This document shows, piece after piece, positions 17,568 to 52,232 of a stretch of DNA of 64,000 nt (within the stretch, counting starts at the first letter, position 1; each line of letters opens with the position of its first letter). A model generated the notes under the pieces. It was not told where the DNA came from, made no database searches, and saw only the letters and a program-made list of their open reading frames with translations. Both the position numbers and the translations under genes were made by a program. The DNA is from Ianthella basta (Eukaryota > Porifera > Demospongiae > Verongiida > Ianthellidae): assembly GCA_964019415.1 (NCBI GenBank), contig OZ025868.1, positions 10,826,623 to 10,890,622 on the forward strand, given 5' to 3'.

Positions 17568-18430
17568 GTGATGAGTGTGACATCTGATGAGAATATTAAT
17601 TTTTGGAAGGAGCAGGTGATTGGGAAGCTAACCGAACAAGTTGCAGCTCTGACAACAGCGTCACTTCGCACTACCAACCGGGAGCAGAGGCGCTGTTTTG
17701 CCTGCAACCGGGTCACATGCAACGCGACTGCCCTTTACACCACCAAGGCTCAGAGGTTGCCGGTGCTTCACATGTGGCAAACAAGGTCACTTGGCCAGAG
17801 AGTGCCACCAGGGAAACGACCAAGGGGCGTCTGTCAAGGCGCCCCCATCCTCCACAGTAAGCACTCACAGCAGCATGGTCACAGTGGTAGCTACAAAGTC
17901 AAGGGTAGCCACTGTGTGGGGTGAACTGGGAAGCACCAGAGTGGAGGTGATGTTGGACTCTGGCTCATCAGTGTCTCTGGTGCAGCAGCAGGTGTTGTCA
18001 AGGGCGGGAGGTGTTGAGCAAATCGAGGGTGAAAGACACCTGCAACTAGTGACCGCATCAGGAGCTCCCCTACCAATTCAACCATTGTAGAGGAGTATCG
18101 TGACCTCTTCTGAATGGCTCCTGGTGCGACAGACGTCACCTGCCACTTCATTCCCACTACAGGAAATCCTGTCAGGGTGCCGCCTGGACGCATCCCAGCC
18201 CAGTACCAAGAGGAAGTTCAGAGACAGCTGGAAGAGATGCTAAACCAAGGCGTCATTGAAGAAAGTAGCAGTCCATGGATGGCACCGGCGGTATGTACGT
18301 AAGAAGTCCGGTGAGCTGCGCATGTGTGTAGACTATTGTGAGCTCGAAGTGAGGGCTTCTCAGCTGGCTCAGGCATCAGAAAGGGTTGGTTCTCTAATAC
18401 CAGCTTCACAACAGGGTTGAAAACCTTGCC

Positions 18431-18463
18431 GACGTTTCGACCAGATGCTCTGGTCTTCTTCAG
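18431..18463 (-). ncRNA. Hammerhead ribozyme-like motif, minus-strand arm
   Basis: An exact reverse-complement copy of the motif at 18491-18523, lying in the left arm of the same palindrome with the same unpaired A. Confidence 0.6.
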
Positions 18464-18490
18464 GGCGAAGATGACCAGAGCATCTTCGCC

Positions 18491-18523
18491 CTGAAGAAGA
18501 CCAGAGCATCTGGTCGAAACGTC
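18491..18523 (+). ncRNA. Hammerhead ribozyme-like motif, plus-strand arm
   Basis: CTGAAGA (18491-18497) is followed by helix II, GACCAGA (18499-18505) paired with TCTGGTC (18509-18515), and then GAAA and ACGT with the expected cleavage after GTC at 18523. One unpaired A at 18498 departs from the canonical core. The very short self-complementary ACGT for helix III is what minimal, dimer-forming type I hammerheads show. Self-cleavage is inferred only. Confidence 0.6.
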
Positions 18524-21157
18524 GGCAAGGTTTTCAACCCTGTTGTGAAGCTGGTATTAGAGAACCAACCCTTTCTATTGTGAGCTCAATAAGCGTACAA
18601 CAAAGGATGCATACCCACTTCCATTGCCCGATGAAGTTCAAGATCAGTTGGCAAGTTCCGTGATCTTCTCCACATTAGACTTCAAGAGTGGGTACTGGCA
18701 ACTACCCATGCATCCAGAAGACCGTATGAAGACAGCCTTTTGCCTGGGCCAGGTCTAGGGCTGTACCAGTTTTGCAGGATGCCATTCGGTTTGTCAGGAG
18801 CACTCAGTTCCTTTCCAACGTCTTATGGACAAAGCGTTGCGAGGTCTGACTTTTGCCACCACCTACGTGGATGACATCTTGGTACACTCAGCAAGTGAAG
18901 AGGAATACAAACAACATCTCAGAGAAGTGTTTCAATGCCTGAAGGAGGCAGGCCTAACATTGAAGGGAAGGAAGTGCCACACTGGTCTGACCGAAGTGTC
19001 CTACTTGGGGCATGTGTTCTCAGATGTGGTTATGCTCCCTGACCCGCAGAAGGCCAAGCAGTGAAAGACTGGCCAACACCAACCAGCATCACAGAGGTGC
19101 AGAAATTTCTGGGCTTAGTATCGTACTATCGGAGATACACCTGTCAGTTTGCAGACATTGCAGCACCCATGTATGCCTTGACCCGGAAAGGTGCATCGTT
19201 TGTGTGGACCTCAGAGTGTGTACAAGCCTTTGCCACGCTAAAGGACAAATTGATGACTGCACCAATCCTGGGTTATCCTTGTTTTGACCAAGACGCTAGC
19301 CAATTCAAACTGCAAACGGATGCTAGTGCAGTGGGCTTGGGAGCCACTCTCAAGCAGGAGGGTCATGTGGTAGCCTGCACCAGCTGAGCACTGACAGGAC
19401 CAGAGCGCCAGTATAGCGTTATCCAAAAGGAGTGTCTAGCCGTGGTCTTTGCACTGAAACAATTTCGACACTACTTACTGGGGCATTCCTTTCAGCTCAT
19501 CACTGATCATGCACCTTTACAGTGGCTGTCAGCACAAAGATGGAAGGGATGTTGTGCCGTTGGGCTCTAGCTATGCAGGAGTATGACATGCAGATTTTGT
19601 ATCGCAAGGGAGCTGTCAACACCAACGCGGATGCCCTCTCTCGACGCAACTGGCCAGAAACAGACCCATGTGCAGTCACGTTAGCAATGCCACACACCCT
19701 CCCACAGGAGCTTCGCCAAGCTCAGCAAGCAGACAGTAACGTTTCTAAGTTGCTACAAGCTCGTTCCTAGTCCTCACTCCGCCCCACAGGGATAGAATTG
19801 TTGAAGCAACCTATGCAGCACTACAGACAATTGTGGTCTCAGCTGCAGGTGAAGGATGGTATTCTGTGCAGGTGCTACTCCCCAGAACTGACATCAGATT
19901 AGATCATGGTCCCCATCCACTCAGACAGTCTGCAGAAAGAAGCACTCCGACAGAATCATGATGCTTCAGGTGCGGGACATCAAGGTCCAGATTGCACATT
20001 GAAGTGACTTTGCCAAGAGGCATACTGTTTTAACATGGCACGAGATGTTGACCAGCACTGCAGGGAGTGTACCACATGCCAACAAACAAAGCCACCTGCA
20101 CCTCAGCATGTTCCCCTCACCAATGTGCCCATTGGGAGACCATGGTAAATGGTTGCCGTGGACATTCTCGAGGTTCCAGTGTCCTCCAGAAACCACCGAT
20201 ACCTATTGGTGGTGCAAGATTACTCCACCAAATGGACGGATGCCATTCTCTGCAGGACCAAACAGCTAGTCGAACAACAGAGTAGCTCGTGAAGTTGTTT
20301 GCAACGTATGGCTAACCAGAATCCCTCCATTCAGACCAAGGGCAAAATTTTGAGAGCACCATTTTGCGCCAAACATTGGAGGCATTCGGTACCAACAAGT
20401 CGCGCACCACAGCTTACCACCCGCAAGGAGATGGTCTCGTTGAATGTTTCAAGAGATCTCTCTTACAGATGTTGCAGGCATACATTGACAAGTACACAGA
20501 CTGGGAACAATATCTACCACTGATATTGTATGCATATCGCTCAGTGGCCCACTTATCCACAGGAGTCTCTCCATTTGTCCTCATGTTTGGGTGACAACCC
20601 AAAATCGCGGATCTCTCATGCCCAATGGCATTTGACAAAGAAACTTATCAAGCTCATGTTCCTGCTAGGTTTGCTGAGTTGCAAGACTTCGTGGAAGCCA
20701 ACATGGTCTCAGCAGCAGAGCACCAAAAGGCCACTTACGATCAACGAGGCACTCCAAGTTCACTCCAAACAGGAGACACAGTCTGGTTATCTTGGTCTAC
20801 AGCAGGCAAGTTAGAACCTCGGTGGGAAGGAGAATGGAGCGTCAAGTCAGTCAAGAGCCCCTGTACAATGGAGATTACAGATGGCCAGCGCACCAGGGTA
20901 GTTCACGCTGATCAGCTAAGACATTGAGTGCAGCTCAGTGTCACGGTAGATCCAAATAGGGCAGACTCAAGTCAAGGCTTGCAACAAGGCTGGCATCCTC
21001 CACAAGTTGATCACATAGTCTTTTCACCAGTGCAACCACCACTGCCACCTCCACCACCGCCACCACCTGAACAATCTGTCCTGCATTATCCTCAGAGAGA
21101 CAGACGACCCCAAACCGCTTGGTAAGCTCGGGGTCGAGCTTGAACTAAGGGGGAACG

Positions 21158-42054: not shown

Positions 42055-42490
42055 CATGTGGAGCGAGACAGCGTGTGGAATGAGAAAGCGTTTGTGGAGC
42101 GAAGCAGCGTGTTGAATGACACTGTGTTAAATTATTAGCTATGTACGTAGCGCGTAGAGTGAGACAGCACGTGGAGAGAAGCAGTGTGTTGAGTGAGGCC
42201 GCGTGCGGAGTGAGGCAGTATGTGGAGTGTGACAGTGCATGGACTGACAGTGCTTGTACTGAGGCAGTGTGTGGAGTGTGACAGCGCATGGACTGACAGC
42301 GCTTGGACTGAGGCAGTGTGTGGAGTGTGACAGCGCGTGGACTGACAGCGCTTGGACTGAGGCAGTGTGTGGAGTGTGACAGTGCATGGACTGACAGCGC
42401 TTGGACCGAGGCTGGGTGTGGAGTTAGGCAGTGCAAGGAGTGAGACAACGTGTGAATTGAAGCTGTGCAATGACTTAGGCAGCGTGTAGT
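42055..42490 (+). repeat. 49-bp minisatellite
   Basis: Tandem copies of a unit containing TGAGGCAGTGTGTGGAGTGT and GACAGCGC(A/G)TGGACTGACAG, with starts at about 42260, 42309 and 42358 and more degenerate units on both sides. Because 49 is not a multiple of three, the repeat appears in three overlapping His/Ser/Leu-rich frames; none is taken as a gene. Confidence 0.93.
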
Positions 42491-46603: not shown

Positions 46604-49251
46604 ATGGCCGAAGAAAACGCCTCCTCTGCTTCCGAAACTGGAGTGGCAGCCGCCCTCAAGTCCCTGCAGGAGCAGCTGAAGGAGCAGCAGCGGACGCAGG
46701 CATCCTGCAGCAACTAGGCGCTCTTCAGCAAGCCTCGGTCTCCGCCTCCGCCTCTTCCCCTACCCCCACCCCCGCTGCGTCGGGGCTTCCGCTGGCGACC
46801 GGTCTTGAAGTTCCTTCCGGTGAGTTCTTATCACGCACTATTTTATCACTCCGTGCTCTCGCTTCCTCTCTATTTACTTGCCCTGCATGCATGTTACTGG
46901 GTAGTTGTGCTTGCGGGTGTGTAGGAACATTCTTGTGTCGGTTTGGAACGGGGTTACCATTACCAGTGTGTGTGTGTGTGTGCGCGTGTGCATGTGGGTG
47001 TGTATGCATGCATGAGTGTAGGGTCAAGGGGGAGTTCTCAGTATCTGTTGCTGCTCTTAGTGGGACTCCATAGGCTTCATTGGCACGTTAGGGGTAGGTC
47101 ATTTAGGTGGGCCTATTTTGGCTTACGGGGGTCTACGGGCTCCACCTATGGTGGAGCATACTTACTTGGTTACTTGGTATAGTGGTTAGGGGCCAGAGTC
47201 CCTTGGCCTGCTCTACGTAGTTACGTCTTGTTCGGTGGGCACATTTGTAGGGCAGCAAGTGGTCGGCTGCTGGGCTACGGGGAATGCCATGGCCAGCAGG
47301 CAATGGCATCTGTATAGGGTGGCTTCCTGGCGGTAGTTCAGAAGGGTTTTTTGGGCTGCTGGCTTGTAGGGCAGCAGAATAGCTGGGTCAGCTTGCTAGT
47401 GGAGCAGTTGGCCTATTTACTAGTGGGGCAGCCAAATAGTATTGGTCGGTTTGCTAGTTATTGGTGCAACTATAGGGCTTAATCTGGGTACTACTGGTTC
47501 AGCAAAATGGTTGGGTCTGCATGCTATGAGCAGCAGAATGGTTCAGTCTGCTTGCCTTTGGTGCGGCAGAATGTTAGGGTCTGCTTGCTATTGGGGCAGC
47601 AGAATGGTCGGGTCTGCTTGCTATTGGGGCAGCAGAATAGTTGGGTCTGCTCGCTATTGGGGCAGCAGAATGGTCTGGTCTGCTTGCTTTTGGGGCAGCA
47701 GAATGGTCTGGTCTGCTTGCTATTGGTGAAGCAGAATGGTCTGGTCTGCTTGCTATTGGGGCAGCAGAATGGTTTGGTCTGCTTGCCTTTGGTGCAGCAG
47801 AATGGTCGGGTCTGCTTGCTATTGGGGCAGCAGAATGGTCTGGTCTGCTTGCTTTTGGGGCAGCAGAATGGTCTGGTCTGCTTGCTATTGGTGAAGCAGA
47901 ATTGTCTGGTCTGCTTGCTATTGGGGCAGCAGAATGGTTTGGTCTGCTTGCCTTTGGTGCAGCAGAATGGTCGGGTCTGCTTGCTATTGGGGCAGCAGAA
48001 TGGTCGGGTCTGCTTGCTATTGGGGCAGCAGAATGGTCGGGTCTGCTTGCTATTGGGGCAGCAGAATGGTTGGGTCTGCTCGCTATTGGGGCAGCAGAAT
48101 GGTCTGGTCTGCTTGCTATTGGTGAAGCAGAATGGTCGGGTCTGCTTGCTATTGGTGCAGCAGAATAGTTTGGTCTGCTTGCTATTGGGGCAACAGAATG
48201 GTCTGGTCTGCTTGCTTTTGGGGCAGCAGAATGGCTCTAGGCTGCTTGCTATTGGGGCAGCTTAATGGTTTGGTATGCTTGCTGTTAAAGCAGTGAATGG
48301 TTTGGTCGGTTGTCATTGGCAAAGCAATCTGAATAGGTTGGGCCGACTGCCCCCCACCCCCTCCTTTTTGTGGGGAGAGGCAACAGTAAGGTCTGGGCTG
48401 CTTGCTTTGGTGGTTTAGTAGGCAGTTGTGGTCACATCTGGGGTATAGGGTACCAGGGTGCATACCAGTCGGGCAAGTTCAGGGGTATAGCCAGTCCGGT
48501 CACTGGCTAAATTGGTGCCTTGTTCTTGTCCTTTGTTTTGTTTCACCCAGCGGCCCAAGATGTTGGGGTCAGTGCCAAAGACATGGTCCCAGTGGCTTCG
48601 GTGGTAAAAGGGGCTTCAGGTGAACCAGCCAAGCAGAAGTCAGGTCTCGTGCTGGGGGGAGGTCTTCCTGCTATCCCTGCAGACATCCTGAAAAAAGTGG
48701 CTGATAATTCTTATATTGAATTATCTGAGTTTCTGCCTGAAAAGATTCAGGAAGCCAGCCTTTACCCAGAGGGCAAAAACAAAAAGAAGGCCCAGCCAAT
48801 TGACAAATTTGTTGACTGGGTGCTGGCGTTTTCGGTGTTCAGCCAGGCGCTTCTGACTAGGGACCCAAGTATCGCCAGTGATTTGTTGGTCTTTGTGGGG
48901 ACTGTAGCTAGGTTGGCCTGGGATCACCCAGGGGCTGCTTGGGCTTCGTATGAGAGCAATTTCCGGGCAAACGCTGTGGCAGATCCATCCACTAAGTGGA
49001 ACAAGCTAAACCAGGAGGTGTGGGCTCTGAGTAAGGTTAGCAAATCGACTCAGAGCTCCAGCACGTCATCAGCTCAGCCCCCACCAAAGCGGAGGGCCCT
49101 GGCATGCCACAAGTGGAATGAGGGGGTATTTTGCCCATTCAAGGCTTGTAAATTCGTGCATGCGTGCTCACACTGCTTGAGCCCCCAGCATCAGGCTTCA
49201 ACATGTCCAGGGGCACCCAGCTCCTCACCAGCTTCAAGAAAGGCCAATTAA
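46604..49251 (+). CDS. DIRS-type gag-like protein, intron-containing
   Basis: Exon 1 (46604-46819) starts MAEENASSASETGVAAALK and is Gln- and Ser-rich. A 1-nt frame change is needed near 46700 to reach GLPLATGLEVPS before the GTGAGT donor at 46820. Exon 2 begins at 48551 after a pyrimidine-rich TTTGTTTTGTTTCACCCAG acceptor in the matching phase 1 and continues AAQDVGVSAKDMVPVASV. It carries a helical core (YIELSEFLPEKIQEASLYPE, WVLAFSVFSQALLTRD) and ends in a cysteine-rich cluster, CHKWNEGVFCPFKACKFVH (C-x8-C-x4-C-x3-H), followed by CSHCLSPQHQASTCP. Likely the nucleic-acid-binding structural protein. The 1-nt shift in exon 1 may disable it. Confidence 0.75.
46820..48550 (+). other. Proposed spliceosomal intron inside the retroelement gag
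   Basis: CCG|GTGAGT at the 5' end and CACCCAG|CG at the 3' end fit GT-AG rules and keep phase 1 on both sides. The intron is about 1.73 kb, GT-rich at first, with the 33-bp minisatellite filling its second half. Splicing is inferred from sequence only. Confidence 0.6.
47400..48300 (+). repeat. 33-bp minisatellite, about 24 units
   Basis: Consensus unit GGTCTGCTTGCTATTGGGGC then AGCAGAATGGTCG, 33 bp long, so all three forward frames stay open for most of the array (repeats of GLLAIGAAEWS, VCLLLGQQNGR and a Trp/Cys-rich frame). Units alternate between CTATTGGGGC, CTTTTGGGGC, CCTTTGGTGC and CTATTGGTGA variants in higher-order patterns. It lies within the proposed gag intron, so translation is not expected. 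Confidence 0.95.
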
Positions 49252-49590
49252 GGCATCATCTGTACTGCTGTACTAGTATAGTTGTATCTGGTAGCATGCT
49301 GGAATTCATATTGGCTCAGCTGTAGCAGCTTACATACACTCCTTGTGCGTGTTTCCTGTTCCAATCATTTATGATCTCCCCAGCATGCCCAAGGTCATTG
49401 GTGGCATACCTTCAGTCAGTGGTAGGCTGAGGGCTATATATATATATATGTGAAAATAAACATAATAATAACATTAAGGAGAAGAAATTACGCAGGTACA
49501 GGGGCTGTAATTAAAATATACATATTATATAATTATTTTATAGTAACAATAGTAATTCTTCATATTCCCTGCTACCCTTAGATGGCATGC
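49252..49590. other. Spacer between gag and RT of the DIRS-type element
   Basis: Contains a short (AT)n run (about 49436-49450) and AT-rich DNA; no coding content. Confidence 0.6.
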
Positions 49591-50536
49591 TTAGCCAGCG
49601 TGCTCTACCTACCTCTCAAAGGGCGGCACCTTTGTTGGCAGACCGTTTTTGTCGGCTGCAGGCAGTAAAGGGGACCCAATCTCCTTGGATTCCTGAGGCA
49701 GCTCGGGGGATCCATACCCAATTAAATATTGATGCCTGGGTTCAGGCTTTGCAGGATCACCCCAACAAGACTTGGGTGGACAGTCGTTTGTCAGGTTTAA
49801 CCCTAATGCGTCTTGTGGCTCGGCTAAAACTAATATGCAGTCGGCCATGGCTCACCCCGCCATCGTGGAGCAGTATTTACACAAGGAAGTAGCAGCTGGC
49901 AACGTGGCTGGTCCTTTCCCTCTTGACTCTCTGAGGGATGCAGTCATCTTGAATCGCTTTGATGTCATCCCAAAAGCACACAAATCCGGTAGTTGGAGGC
50001 TGATTGTGGATCTGTCATTCCCCCATGGGTGCAGTGTCAATGAGGGCATTTCCGCCAATGATGCCAGCATGGCTTATTCTTCAGTCGAAGACGCAGCCCA
50101 GGTAGTCACAAAATTGGGAAAAAATACCTTGCTGGCAAAAATCGACATTGCCAGTGCCTTTCGCATAATTCCAGTCCACCCTGATGATCGCCATCTACTG
50201 GGCATGAAGTGGAAGAACGAGGTGTTTATCGATAAACAGCTTCCTTTCGGCTTGAGATCAGCCCCAGTCCTGTTCAATGCTGTGGCTGATGCCCTTGAAT
50301 GGATCCTGAGGAAGAGGGGTATCTCCCACGTGATCCACTACCTGGATGATTTTTTAGTCTTTGGCACTCCGGGTTCCGAGGAATGTTCACAGTTCCTGGA
50401 GTGCATGAGGGAAACCTGCGAAGAGCTAGGTATCCCACTGGCACTGGAGAAGGTTGCTGGTCCTTGCACCCAGTTAACATTTCTAGGCATAGAATTGGAC
50501 ACTGAAAAGATGCAGAAGAAAAGCTGCTTCGTTTAA
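49590..50536 (+). pseudogene. DIRS-type reverse transcriptase, two frameshifts
   Basis: The upstream frame contains HTQLNIDAWVQALQDHPNKT. After a shift near 49790 the main frame reads FNPNASCGSAKTNMQSAMAH, SGSWRLIVDLSFPHG, TLLAKIDIASAFRIIPVHP and LPFGLRSAPVLFNAVADAL, then the catalytic HYLDDFLVFG (about 50330-50360) and ELGIPLALEKV. A second shift near 50510 is needed to continue into EEKLLRLKAELHAWL at the start of the RNase H frame. The catalytic core is complete, so the damage is slight and probably recent. Confidence 0.88.
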
Positions 50537-51321
50537 AGGCTGAGCTGCATGCCTGGCTGGACAAAAAATCCTGCACCAGGAGGGAGCTGGAACATTTAAT
50601 CGGGGTGCTTCAGTTCGCATCAAAGGTAGTCCCCCAAGGCCGGCCCTTTGTCAGGAGGATGATAAACCTCCTTTCAGTAGCAAAAGGCCATCACCATATC
50701 CGCCTCAATGCCGAATTTCGTTCAGATTTGGCTTGGTGGTGGTCATTTGCGGAAGCATGGAATGGCATCTCATTCCTCCAACTGTGTAATGCGCTGGTAC
50801 CCTCATGCAATGTGTTCACCGATTCTTCGGGTTCATTTGGGTGCGGGGCTTGTTGGGGCACTCTATGGCTGCAGGGTCAGTGGCCTGCTGAGTGGGCTAC
50901 CATGAACATCATGGTCAAGGAATTGGTTCCTGTGGTATTGGCATGTGCCATTTGGGGCCCTCATTGGTCTGGGCGTCATGTCCGCTTCCATATTGACAAC
51001 ATGTCAGTGGTACAGGTGCTGCAAAAAGGGGCTTCTAAAGAGCCCTCAGGAGTTGTCATGCACCTCTTGCGGTGTCTGTCATTCTTCACTGCCATCTTCC
51101 ACTTTACAATTTCTTCAAGCCACATTGCCGGGGCCCTAAACAGTATTGCTGACAACATTTCCAGAAACAATCTAGGTTCTCTCCCGGTGCAGGTTCCGGG
51201 CATTCAACCCCATCCATCAGCAATTCCAGCCTCTCTCTGGTCACTCCTAGTCCTGGAGTGGCCAGATTGGACCTCCAAAAGGTGGAGAAGGCTCTTCATG
51301 GATTTTATTTATCTGGTCTAG
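50510..51321 (+). CDS. DIRS-type RNase H region
   Basis: After the RT thumb (KLLRLKAELHAWLDKKSC, LEHLIGVLQFASKVV) comes an RNase H-like fold with the first acid in VFTDSSGSFGCGACW, the glutamate in NIMVKELVPVVLA and the next acid in FHIDNMSVVQVLQ. It ends SIADNISRNN, a usual ending for these enzymes, then extends until it overlaps the recombinase ATG by 64 nt in another frame. No stop interrupts it. Confidence 0.85.
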
Positions 51322-52232
51322 CAGTTTCTACTCAGAGGGCATACTCTTCTGGGCAAAGGCGTTTCTTGGCCTTCTGCACCAAGTTTAACCTCCCAGCACT
51401 GCCTCCATCTGAGCACACCATCATGTTATTTATTTCTCAACTAGGCTTGGATGGTCTATCTCTATCTACTATCAAGAGCTACTTGGCATCTATTCGCAAT
51501 TTACTCATTAATCATGGTTTTCAAATCACTAACATTTATACCCCTCGGGTGGATCTGGTATTGAGAGGGATAAAGTGTGTAAAGTGTAATGTGGCAAGTT
51601 CCAAAGTTCGGCTCCCAATCACCCCTGCTATTTTGGGGGACCTAAAGAAAGTTTGGAGGAGCAACACTTCGGACAACCGCATGCTTTGGGCTGCAGCTTG
51701 CCTGGGCTTCTTTGGGTTCCTACGTTGCGCGGAGTTGACCATCGCCACAGTCAATGCCTTCGACCCATCTAAGCACTTAACTCTGGGGGATGTGTTGGTA
51801 ACACCTGACCTTCAGTGTTCAACGTTGGCAGTAAAAATCAAGATGTCTAAAACCGACCAATTTGGGAAAGGGGTGTGGATATATTTCCAGCGTACCGGTG
51901 TCGCCCTATGCCCAGTGGAAGCTATGTTAGAATACATCAAGCTGCGCGGGACAAAGGAAGGTCCACTGTTTCTTACCAGCGAGGGTCAACCACTTACGCG
52001 CAGCTATTTCGTGGGCAGTCTCAGAAAAGCTCTCGCCCTGGCTGATATCAATGACTCCAATTATGCAGGACACAGCTTCCGCATTGGGGCAGCAACCACA
52101 GCTCTCCGGGCAGGAGTTTCTGATGCCAAGATAAAGATGCTTGGAAGATGGGAAAGCTCAGCCTATCAGTTGTATTTACAAACCCCACGTCAGGAGTTGG
52201 CGGCTATTTCACCCATCTTAGCTAAATCCTAA
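51258..52232 (+). CDS. Tyrosine recombinase of the DIRS/Ngaro-type element, intact
   Basis: 324 residues. An N-terminal SAM-like DNA-binding domain (AVSTQRAYSSGQRRFLAFC, LSTIKSYLASIRNLL) is followed by the catalytic domain. It has the first arginine at residue 156 (GFFGFLRCAEL), the lysine region in KIKMSKTDQFGKG, the HxxR box HSFRIGAATTAL (about residue 273) and the C-terminal GRWESSAYQLY with the nucleophilic tyrosine (about 300). It would integrate circular cDNA without a target duplication. There are no stops or frameshifts, and it overlaps the RNase H frame. The best-preserved mobile-element gene in the window. Confidence 0.93.
   Translation: MARLDLQKVEKALHGFYLSGLAVSTQRAYSSGQRRFLAFCTKFNLPALPPSEHTIMLFISQLGLDGLSLSTIKSYLASIRNLLINHGFQITNIYTPRVDLVLRGIKCVKCNVASSKVRLPITPAILGDLKKVWRSNTSDNRMLWAAACLGFFGFLRCAELTIATVNAFDPSKHLTLGDVLVTPDLQCSTLAVKIKMSKTDQFGKGVWIYFQRTGVALCPVEAMLEYIKLRGTKEGPLFLTSEGQPLTRSYFVGSLRKALALADINDSNYAGHSFRIGAATTALRAGVSDAKIKMLGRWESSAYQLYLQTPRQELAAISPILAKS

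Follow-up and report, generated by a model that had tools for sequence, protein, structure and literature searches.

Introduction

Inverted pseudo-long terminal repeats (pLTRs) and tails are already known in Penelope-like elements (PLEs). Pen2a and other PLEs of Adineta vaga possess an open reading frame (ORF) with reverse transcriptase (RT) and GIY-YIG domains, inverted pLTRs and a 31-bp tail on one of them, and also display short target duplications and palindromes at the inverted junction, as described in the accessible part of PMC3846280. The purified PAc Poseidon protein of Anolis carolinensis cuts and extends both strands in vitro, with two internal sites bounding the tail, and additional steps of PLE integration are said there to await validation (PMC11167929, accessible sections). 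Hammerhead ribozymes of PLEs have been described as minimal and often without helix III (PMC6155905, PMC7761336, in the passages available), and their activity and role in vivo are still called a mystery (PMC7761336). Here we analyse a window of 64,000 nucleotides from the sponge Ianthella basta (assembly GCA_964019415.1, contig OZ025868.1, positions 10,826,623 to 10,890,622, forward strand), in which a small palindromic insertion derived from a PLE interrupts a Ty3/Gypsy retrotransposon. Judged by this copy and its relatives, all from one PLE family in one genome, such insertions were very probably produced by two-sided target-primed reverse transcription by the PLE, with the arms joined by microhomology or templated filler.

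Results

A palindromic insertion with a target duplication

The insert comprises 231 bp (18346-18576) and is flanked by CTATTGTGAGCTC on either side, the direct repeat occupying 18333-18345 and 18575-18587. The CT at 18575-18576 is common to the element end and the duplication, so that the duplication measures 11-13 bp. The inverted arms (18378-18473 and 18481-18576) are 96 nt each, 100% complementary and separated by a 7-nt spacer, while a further end piece of 31 nt (18346-18376) sits within the insert and outside the palindrome. In the sense of the element, the order is antisense tail, antisense arm from +96 to +1, 9-nt filler and sense arm from +1 to +95, where the PLE RNA is numbered with +1 as the A of ATCTTCGCCC. 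The features of the locus are as follows.

17653..20594, plus strand: broken Ty3/Gypsy retrotransposon hosting the insertion, with zinc knuckle/protease, RT, RNase H and integrase fragments
18333..18345, no strand: target site duplication, left copy, CTATTGTGAGCTC; supported by empty sites in three Gypsy paralogues
18346..18376, minus strand: antisense PLE tail, +127 to +97 of the PLE RNA, ATGCCTGAGCC.., with the first ORF codons; predicted cDNA start at site A
18377..18472, minus strand: antisense pLTR arm, +96 to +1 of the PLE RNA; hammerhead-like motif on the minus strand
between 18431 and 18430, minus strand: predicted hammerhead cut in the antisense arm
18473..18481, no strand: templated filler GACCAGAGC, 9 nt, joining the two arms; same sequence as +18..+26 of the unit
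18482..18576, plus strand: pLTR arm in sense orientation (+1 to +95) with its far end at site B, just 5' of the ORF ATG
18491..18523, plus strand: hammerhead-like core (RNAfold; +43 end class)
parts of this core, plus strand: CTGAAGA 18491-18497; extra A 18498; stem II 18499-18505/18509-18515; GAAACGTC 18516-18523
between 18523 and 18524, plus strand: predicted cut of the sense-arm core (+42/+43)
18575..18587, no strand: target site duplication, right copy

A Pfam scan of the host placed RVT_1, RNase H and zinc knuckle above or near the cut-off and integrase and protease below it. When the two flanks of the insert were searched separately, they abutted exactly in three Gypsy paralogues (on C4, C7 and C3) at 91-96% identity, and hence the pre-insertion site is known. 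An initial annotation of the window had reported identical 96-bp inverted arms, a hammerhead-like core in each (CTGAAGA, a 7-bp stem and GAAACGTC) and a 13-bp target duplication made by insertion into an older Gypsy copy; the arms, the cores and the insertion all stand, the duplication being real with its length refined as above. The accompanying statement that the RT resumes exactly past the insert holds, through the empty sites of the paralogues, at the DNA level only. Nor is the palindrome a matter of chance, for the unit recurs at at least 40 distinct palindromic places (40 of 1103 initial candidates were scored).

The arms derive from a PLE of the same genome

Throughout the genome (209 Mb, 96 contigs), a pattern for the tail (35 bases, at most 3 mismatches) found 1172 matches against none for its reversed control, and a pattern for the pLTR 3' end (22 bases, at most 3 mismatches) found 2280 against one; the two patterns are unequal in length, which makes the ratio of tails to pLTRs a rough one. 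Ten of the tails continue into the ORF, and the density of matches falls towards the ORF start, from 174 near the ORF end through 81 in the RT to 10 at the start itself. At locus L053 the pLTR and tail of the insert recur and are followed by an ORF (MPEPAEKPSLH...); Pfam matches above cut-off to RVT_1 (E 3e-7) and GIY-YIG (E 2.4e-5) come from an inverted copy linked to it. The N-terminal part of the L053 ORF gave no match in the Pfam scan, and a PDB search with the PLE RT returned two weak matches (E 0.49). As in other PLEs, where the tail is optional, one of the two inverted pLTRs bears a tail of 30-40 nt, and the antisense tail at 18346..18376 matches that known from the accessible parts of PMC11167929 and PMC3846280. 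By sequence, then, the arms of the palindrome are the PLE 5' end, from +1 to about +96, to which the left end adds the PLE tail; the Penelope origin suggested at the outset is thereby confirmed.

Genomic copies and their target duplications

We read 121 distinct tail places, about 10% of the 1172; for the tail list, 90 of the 100 places listed were retrieved in their own right. At 94 of them a duplication of 10-16 bp, mostly 12-13, lies beside the tail (460 nt searched), and places with no duplication of at least 9 bp within that distance were left out. Removal of two repeats of the same duplication left 92 copies, and removal of nine with one unalignable arm left 83, comprising 48 from the tail list and 35 found by likeness to the window palindrome, which were classified for their ends; arms were compared in the 80 that passed a stricter cut. 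The window copy is outside the set of 94. Many further copies with different flanks are present, as had been anticipated. As 56 of 82 tail-list places are short, extrapolation to the 1172 tails suggests hundreds of short, complete insertions in the genome.

Two loci, L088 (C1:8152621) and L089 (C1:8208137), have single tailed arms, a common flank repeat TTGAAGATAT and a second arm that could not be aligned; they are probably a duplicated locus.

One arm ends at site A and the other at site B

The outer ends of the insertions take two forms: site A is the end of the tail, and site B lies 32 nt upstream in the RNA, just 5' of the ORF ATG. We examined head-to-head pairs within 400 bp of each other with exact pLTR ends on C1, chosen without regard to the tail; 31 pairs gave 29 distinct ones after two were dropped as apparent repeats of a third with the same join. 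Among the matches listed, 28 of the 29 combine A with B and the 29th is ambiguous, where about half would be mixed if each arm had an independent and equal chance of A or B. The genome-wide numbers of pLTR 3' ends (2280) and tails (1172), as a rough ratio, are in keeping with this. In 18 of these listed pairs an exact tail is present on one arm and the partner arm enters the duplication directly; nine of the other 11 were retrieved, eight of them with a tail on one arm only (altered in L142 and L143), and the ambiguous L144 has six tail bases. The remaining two of the 11, L033 and the window copy, also pair A with B. The four kilobase insertions that were checked, which bear the ORF, all have the A and B ends of the short copies and a shared duplication, in one case of only 8-9 bp and purine-rich.

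L035 (C1:5368513) and L046 (C1:4388920), which are among the few exceptions to A+B, each show a compound insertion in which a further sense pLTR, ending at B, comes after an A+A palindrome; the two look like a segmental duplication.

The joins between arms vary

Among the 94 copies (92 distinct) whose duplication reaches at least 9 bp, the outer ends are near-constant and the middle is variable, the arms stopping at differing points from copy to copy. The 80 copies with two alignable arms have 66 different joins, of which two types recur in five copies each. The joins show microhomology, in 27 of 94 rows, or filler. Fillers of 5-25 nt resemble the unit more closely than shuffled ones: their mean longest match is 0.67 of filler length (n=31), compared with 0.52 for shuffled fillers and a maximum of 0.57 across 300 shuffles. 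With 66 different centres among 80 copies, this is not a unit spreading as such. The initial view of a non-autonomous derivative that moves as such is not sustained, given these joins, the variable arm stops and the ORF-bearing copies with the same ends; each copy is better read, from its sequence, as made anew from PLE RNA at insertion.

Many arms end at +1 and a second class at +43

In many arms the sequence stops at +1, a position about 30 nt downstream of TATAAATA that would probably be the transcription start or cap site. At least one arm ends at or below +4 in 35 of the 48 tail-list copies. Among copies found by likeness, 35 of 35 have both arms at or below +4, an effect of the BLAST selection. 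Partner arms near +12 rest on a 5-nt microhomology. Genome-wide, an exact pattern identifies 136 loci with arm pairs ending at or below +8. At L051 and L098 the arms extend upstream past +1, presumably from longer or tandem transcripts.

A pattern for the second class matched 25 loci, and of their 50 arms 26 end at +43 exactly, eight at 44 and seven at 45; four go beyond +43, three of these by 1-2 nt. Both arms end at 43-45 in 18 of the 25, a concordance that arises by design since the pattern demanded that both arms end between about +48 and +18. The next zone (+46..+61) contains 22 loci, where an arm could reach about +31 if its partner stopped early; none of their 44 arms passes +43 and six lie exactly on it. 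With 22 loci against 25, and an arm at +43..+46 in 16 of the 22, this zone is no empty background for +43. In the 83 classified copies, which were selected independently of +43, both arms end in +43..+49 in three and one arm only in three (Fisher p 4e-4). The boundary +42/+43 coincides with the predicted hammerhead cut (GTC/G), and ribozyme cleavage may be the cause of the +43 ends.

Both arms probably share a template

Position +78 is either A or G among copies. Of 80 copies, 68 have A in both arms, eight have G in both, two are mixed and two are unscorable (Fisher p 3e-9 for the 78 scorable), and the eight GG copies differ from each other in duplication and join. More generally, 13 variants are common to both arms, compared with 2.5 +- 1.5 (maximum 8) in 2000 shuffles of arms between copies. 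Variants in one arm are commoner (110) and include CpG positions, which fits later decay; in 37 of the 80 copies the arms do not differ at all. A single RNA molecule would therefore appear to have served both arms, or at least a single source copy, the latter being all that concordance at +78 requires.

A hammerhead-like motif

The hammerhead core consists of CUGANGA, GAA and UH with stems I and II. All of these elements are present in the arm sequence and in the RNAfold structure of +1..+60, in which stems I and II (7 bp) surround an open core, but stem I is missing from the structure of +1..+128. Ribozyme activity of the motif is predicted and unproven. The hammerhead model search proposed with the initial annotation was unsuccessful: across the whole window and the insert, Rfam gave no match at the gathering score, and at lax thresholds the matches were to microRNA and other families, driven by the hairpin and scoring far under the cut-offs. 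The suspicion that opposed arms pair with each other was correct, in so far as RNAfold turns the RNA of the whole palindrome into one long hairpin with the arms paired; in that model the inserted copy would not be expected to cut.

Other repeats in the window

By eye, 48511-52232 resembles a DIRS-type retroelement, having ORFs with the RT motif YLDDFLVFG and a tyrosine-recombinase-like end, HSFRIGAATTALRAG. There are tandem arrays at 47500-48283 (33-bp unit, 23.8 copies, three reading frames open) and at 42207-42443 (49-bp unit, 4.8 copies).

Discussion

The ends, duplications, A+B pairing, variable joins, end classes and shared variant are read directly from genomic DNA, and from these we infer priming on both strands in vivo. 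In the mechanism we propose, the RT/GIY-YIG protein of the PLE would cut the target in a staggered manner, leaving 3' overhangs of about 12-13 nt, and both 3' ends would prime within the element RNA, at site A about 128 nt and site B about 96 nt from its 5' end. The two cDNAs, sharing one RNA molecule as template or at least one source copy, would be extended as far as the 5' end of the RNA, either +1 or, in a minority of cases, +43, where the hammerhead would have cut, and would then be joined head to head via microhomology or a short templated filler; filling of the overhangs would create the target duplication. Any transcript initiated in the pLTR would have both start sites close to its 5' end, so that many insertions would be strong-stop products, and longer insertions would require a longer upstream template. 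It is conceivable, and we suggest it tentatively with doubt and belief nearly balanced, that an enzyme acting as a dimer makes two copies of a single RNA, beginning at tandem start sites that each serve one cut strand, that this is the basic PLE product and explains inverted pLTRs, tails and palindromes alike, and that the hammerhead trims some templates in vivo.

Several observations weigh against this account. The position of +1 is set by arm ends and not by RNA mapping; both arms end at or below +4 in only seven of the 48 tail-list copies, and in that set, chosen without likeness to the window copy, stops at 0-2 occur in 13 of 48 T arms and 22 of 48 N arms. No duplication was found inside 460 nt at 27 of 121 tail places (four of these were examined further), and tails occur on both arms at two loci, L035 and L060 (4 of 121 places). 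Arm-to-arm gene conversion could likewise yield shared variants. As for the motif, folding of +1..+128 replaces stem I by another hairpin, stem III is absent and no Rfam match was obtained. A canonical minimal type I hammerhead has no additional base between A9 and stem II, whereas here one extra A (18498) stands beside stem II. Finally, the strict pairing of A with B contrasts with the lack of any strand difference in start site in vitro, according to the accessible text of PMC11167929.

Inverted arms would also result if a single cDNA folded back and copied itself. Such self-priming, on an antisense template, was proposed for Adineta vaga Penelope and argued from palindromes at inverted junctions (PMC3846280, available sections), and it would accommodate both the template variants shared by the arms and the many near-palindromic joins. 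A fold-back copy would, however, repeat the far end of its template, whereas A faces B in 28 of the 29 distinct pairs among the matches listed; copying of a target-attached cDNA would enter the flank and leave no direct duplication; and very short, unequal arms exist on both sides (L055, L136). Since neither the A+B rule nor direct duplications are predicted by self-priming, the evidence points away from it and we consider it most improbable. We give just as little credence to a tiny non-autonomous Penelope derivative whose palindrome is transcribed and inserted in its entirety: many short, closely similar copies and two joins seen five times each are what it would leave, yet 66 joins are distinct among 80 copies, the commonest rest on microhomology and four ORF-bearing insertions have the same ends. 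A Foldback element or miniature inverted-repeat transposable element, DNA transposons with mutually inverted ends, a fixed interior and a fixed duplication length, was rejected, as the ends differ (A and B), the joins vary and the duplications range over 10-16 bp.

Two-sided priming itself leaves room for a variant in which each arm is copied from a different RNA, for instance from a dimer from one locus. Cleavage as dimers has been reported for minimal PLE hammerheads (PMC7761336, accessible part), which could yield two RNAs cut together; ACGT is self-complementary, and a common source copy would suffice for the concordance at +78. We take this two-RNA variant seriously, at somewhat less than even odds. 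With regard to +43, the ends might reflect pausing of the RT at folded RNA rather than ribozyme cleavage, given that in the short fold +43 lies at the base of a stem, that stem I does not form in the longer one, that the motif has no Rfam hammerhead score, and that the concordance of arms was built in at the 25 loci by the choice of pattern. Pausing is nonetheless unlikely in our estimation: 26 of 50 arms fall exactly on the predicted cut, none of 44 in the next zone lies beyond it, and paired ends in +43..+49 are as frequent as single ones (three each among 83), unlike independent pauses. Palindromic GC at the join may contribute to this concordance.

In short, complete insertions of this kind, the template end and the primer end of an event are preserved for both cDNAs. 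Taken together they resemble fossil traces of a PLE copying itself onto the two ends of a DNA break, and possibly of RNA cutting by its ribozyme in the animal, and they supply a base-exact prediction for RNA 5' ends, at +1 and +43. In the PLE literature that we searched, we found no mention of strict A+B pairing, of a template shared between arms or of a class of ends at the ribozyme site, and no earlier two-sided PLE model or pLTR-only palindromes.

Retroviral minus-strand strong-stop DNA is likewise a short run-off cDNA primed near the RNA 5' end; the PLE products would differ in being primed from both cut target strands and joined in place. Animal non-LTR retrozymes resemble the present copies as short non-coding repeats with type I hammerheads, and differ in their direct tandem repeats, canonical hammerheads and circular RNAs (PMC7229834, available portion); the arms of the window copy are head to head only, with no tandem array, and a retrozyme was rejected on this structure. 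The copies described from Adineta vaga, as far as the accessible part of PMC3846280 goes, are few and mostly include parts of the ORF, with solo pLTRs noted, whereas here many insertions are little more than two arms, and about a hundred could be read to give statistics of ends and joins. PAc Poseidon has in common with the sponge PLE an internal start of reverse transcription at two sites bounding the tail, use of both strands and a hammerhead by the ORF start; the accessible text of PMC11167929 describes no strand difference in vitro and no reads ending at the ribozyme cut, whereas the sponge genome contains insertions with one A and one B end and a class of ends at the predicted cut.
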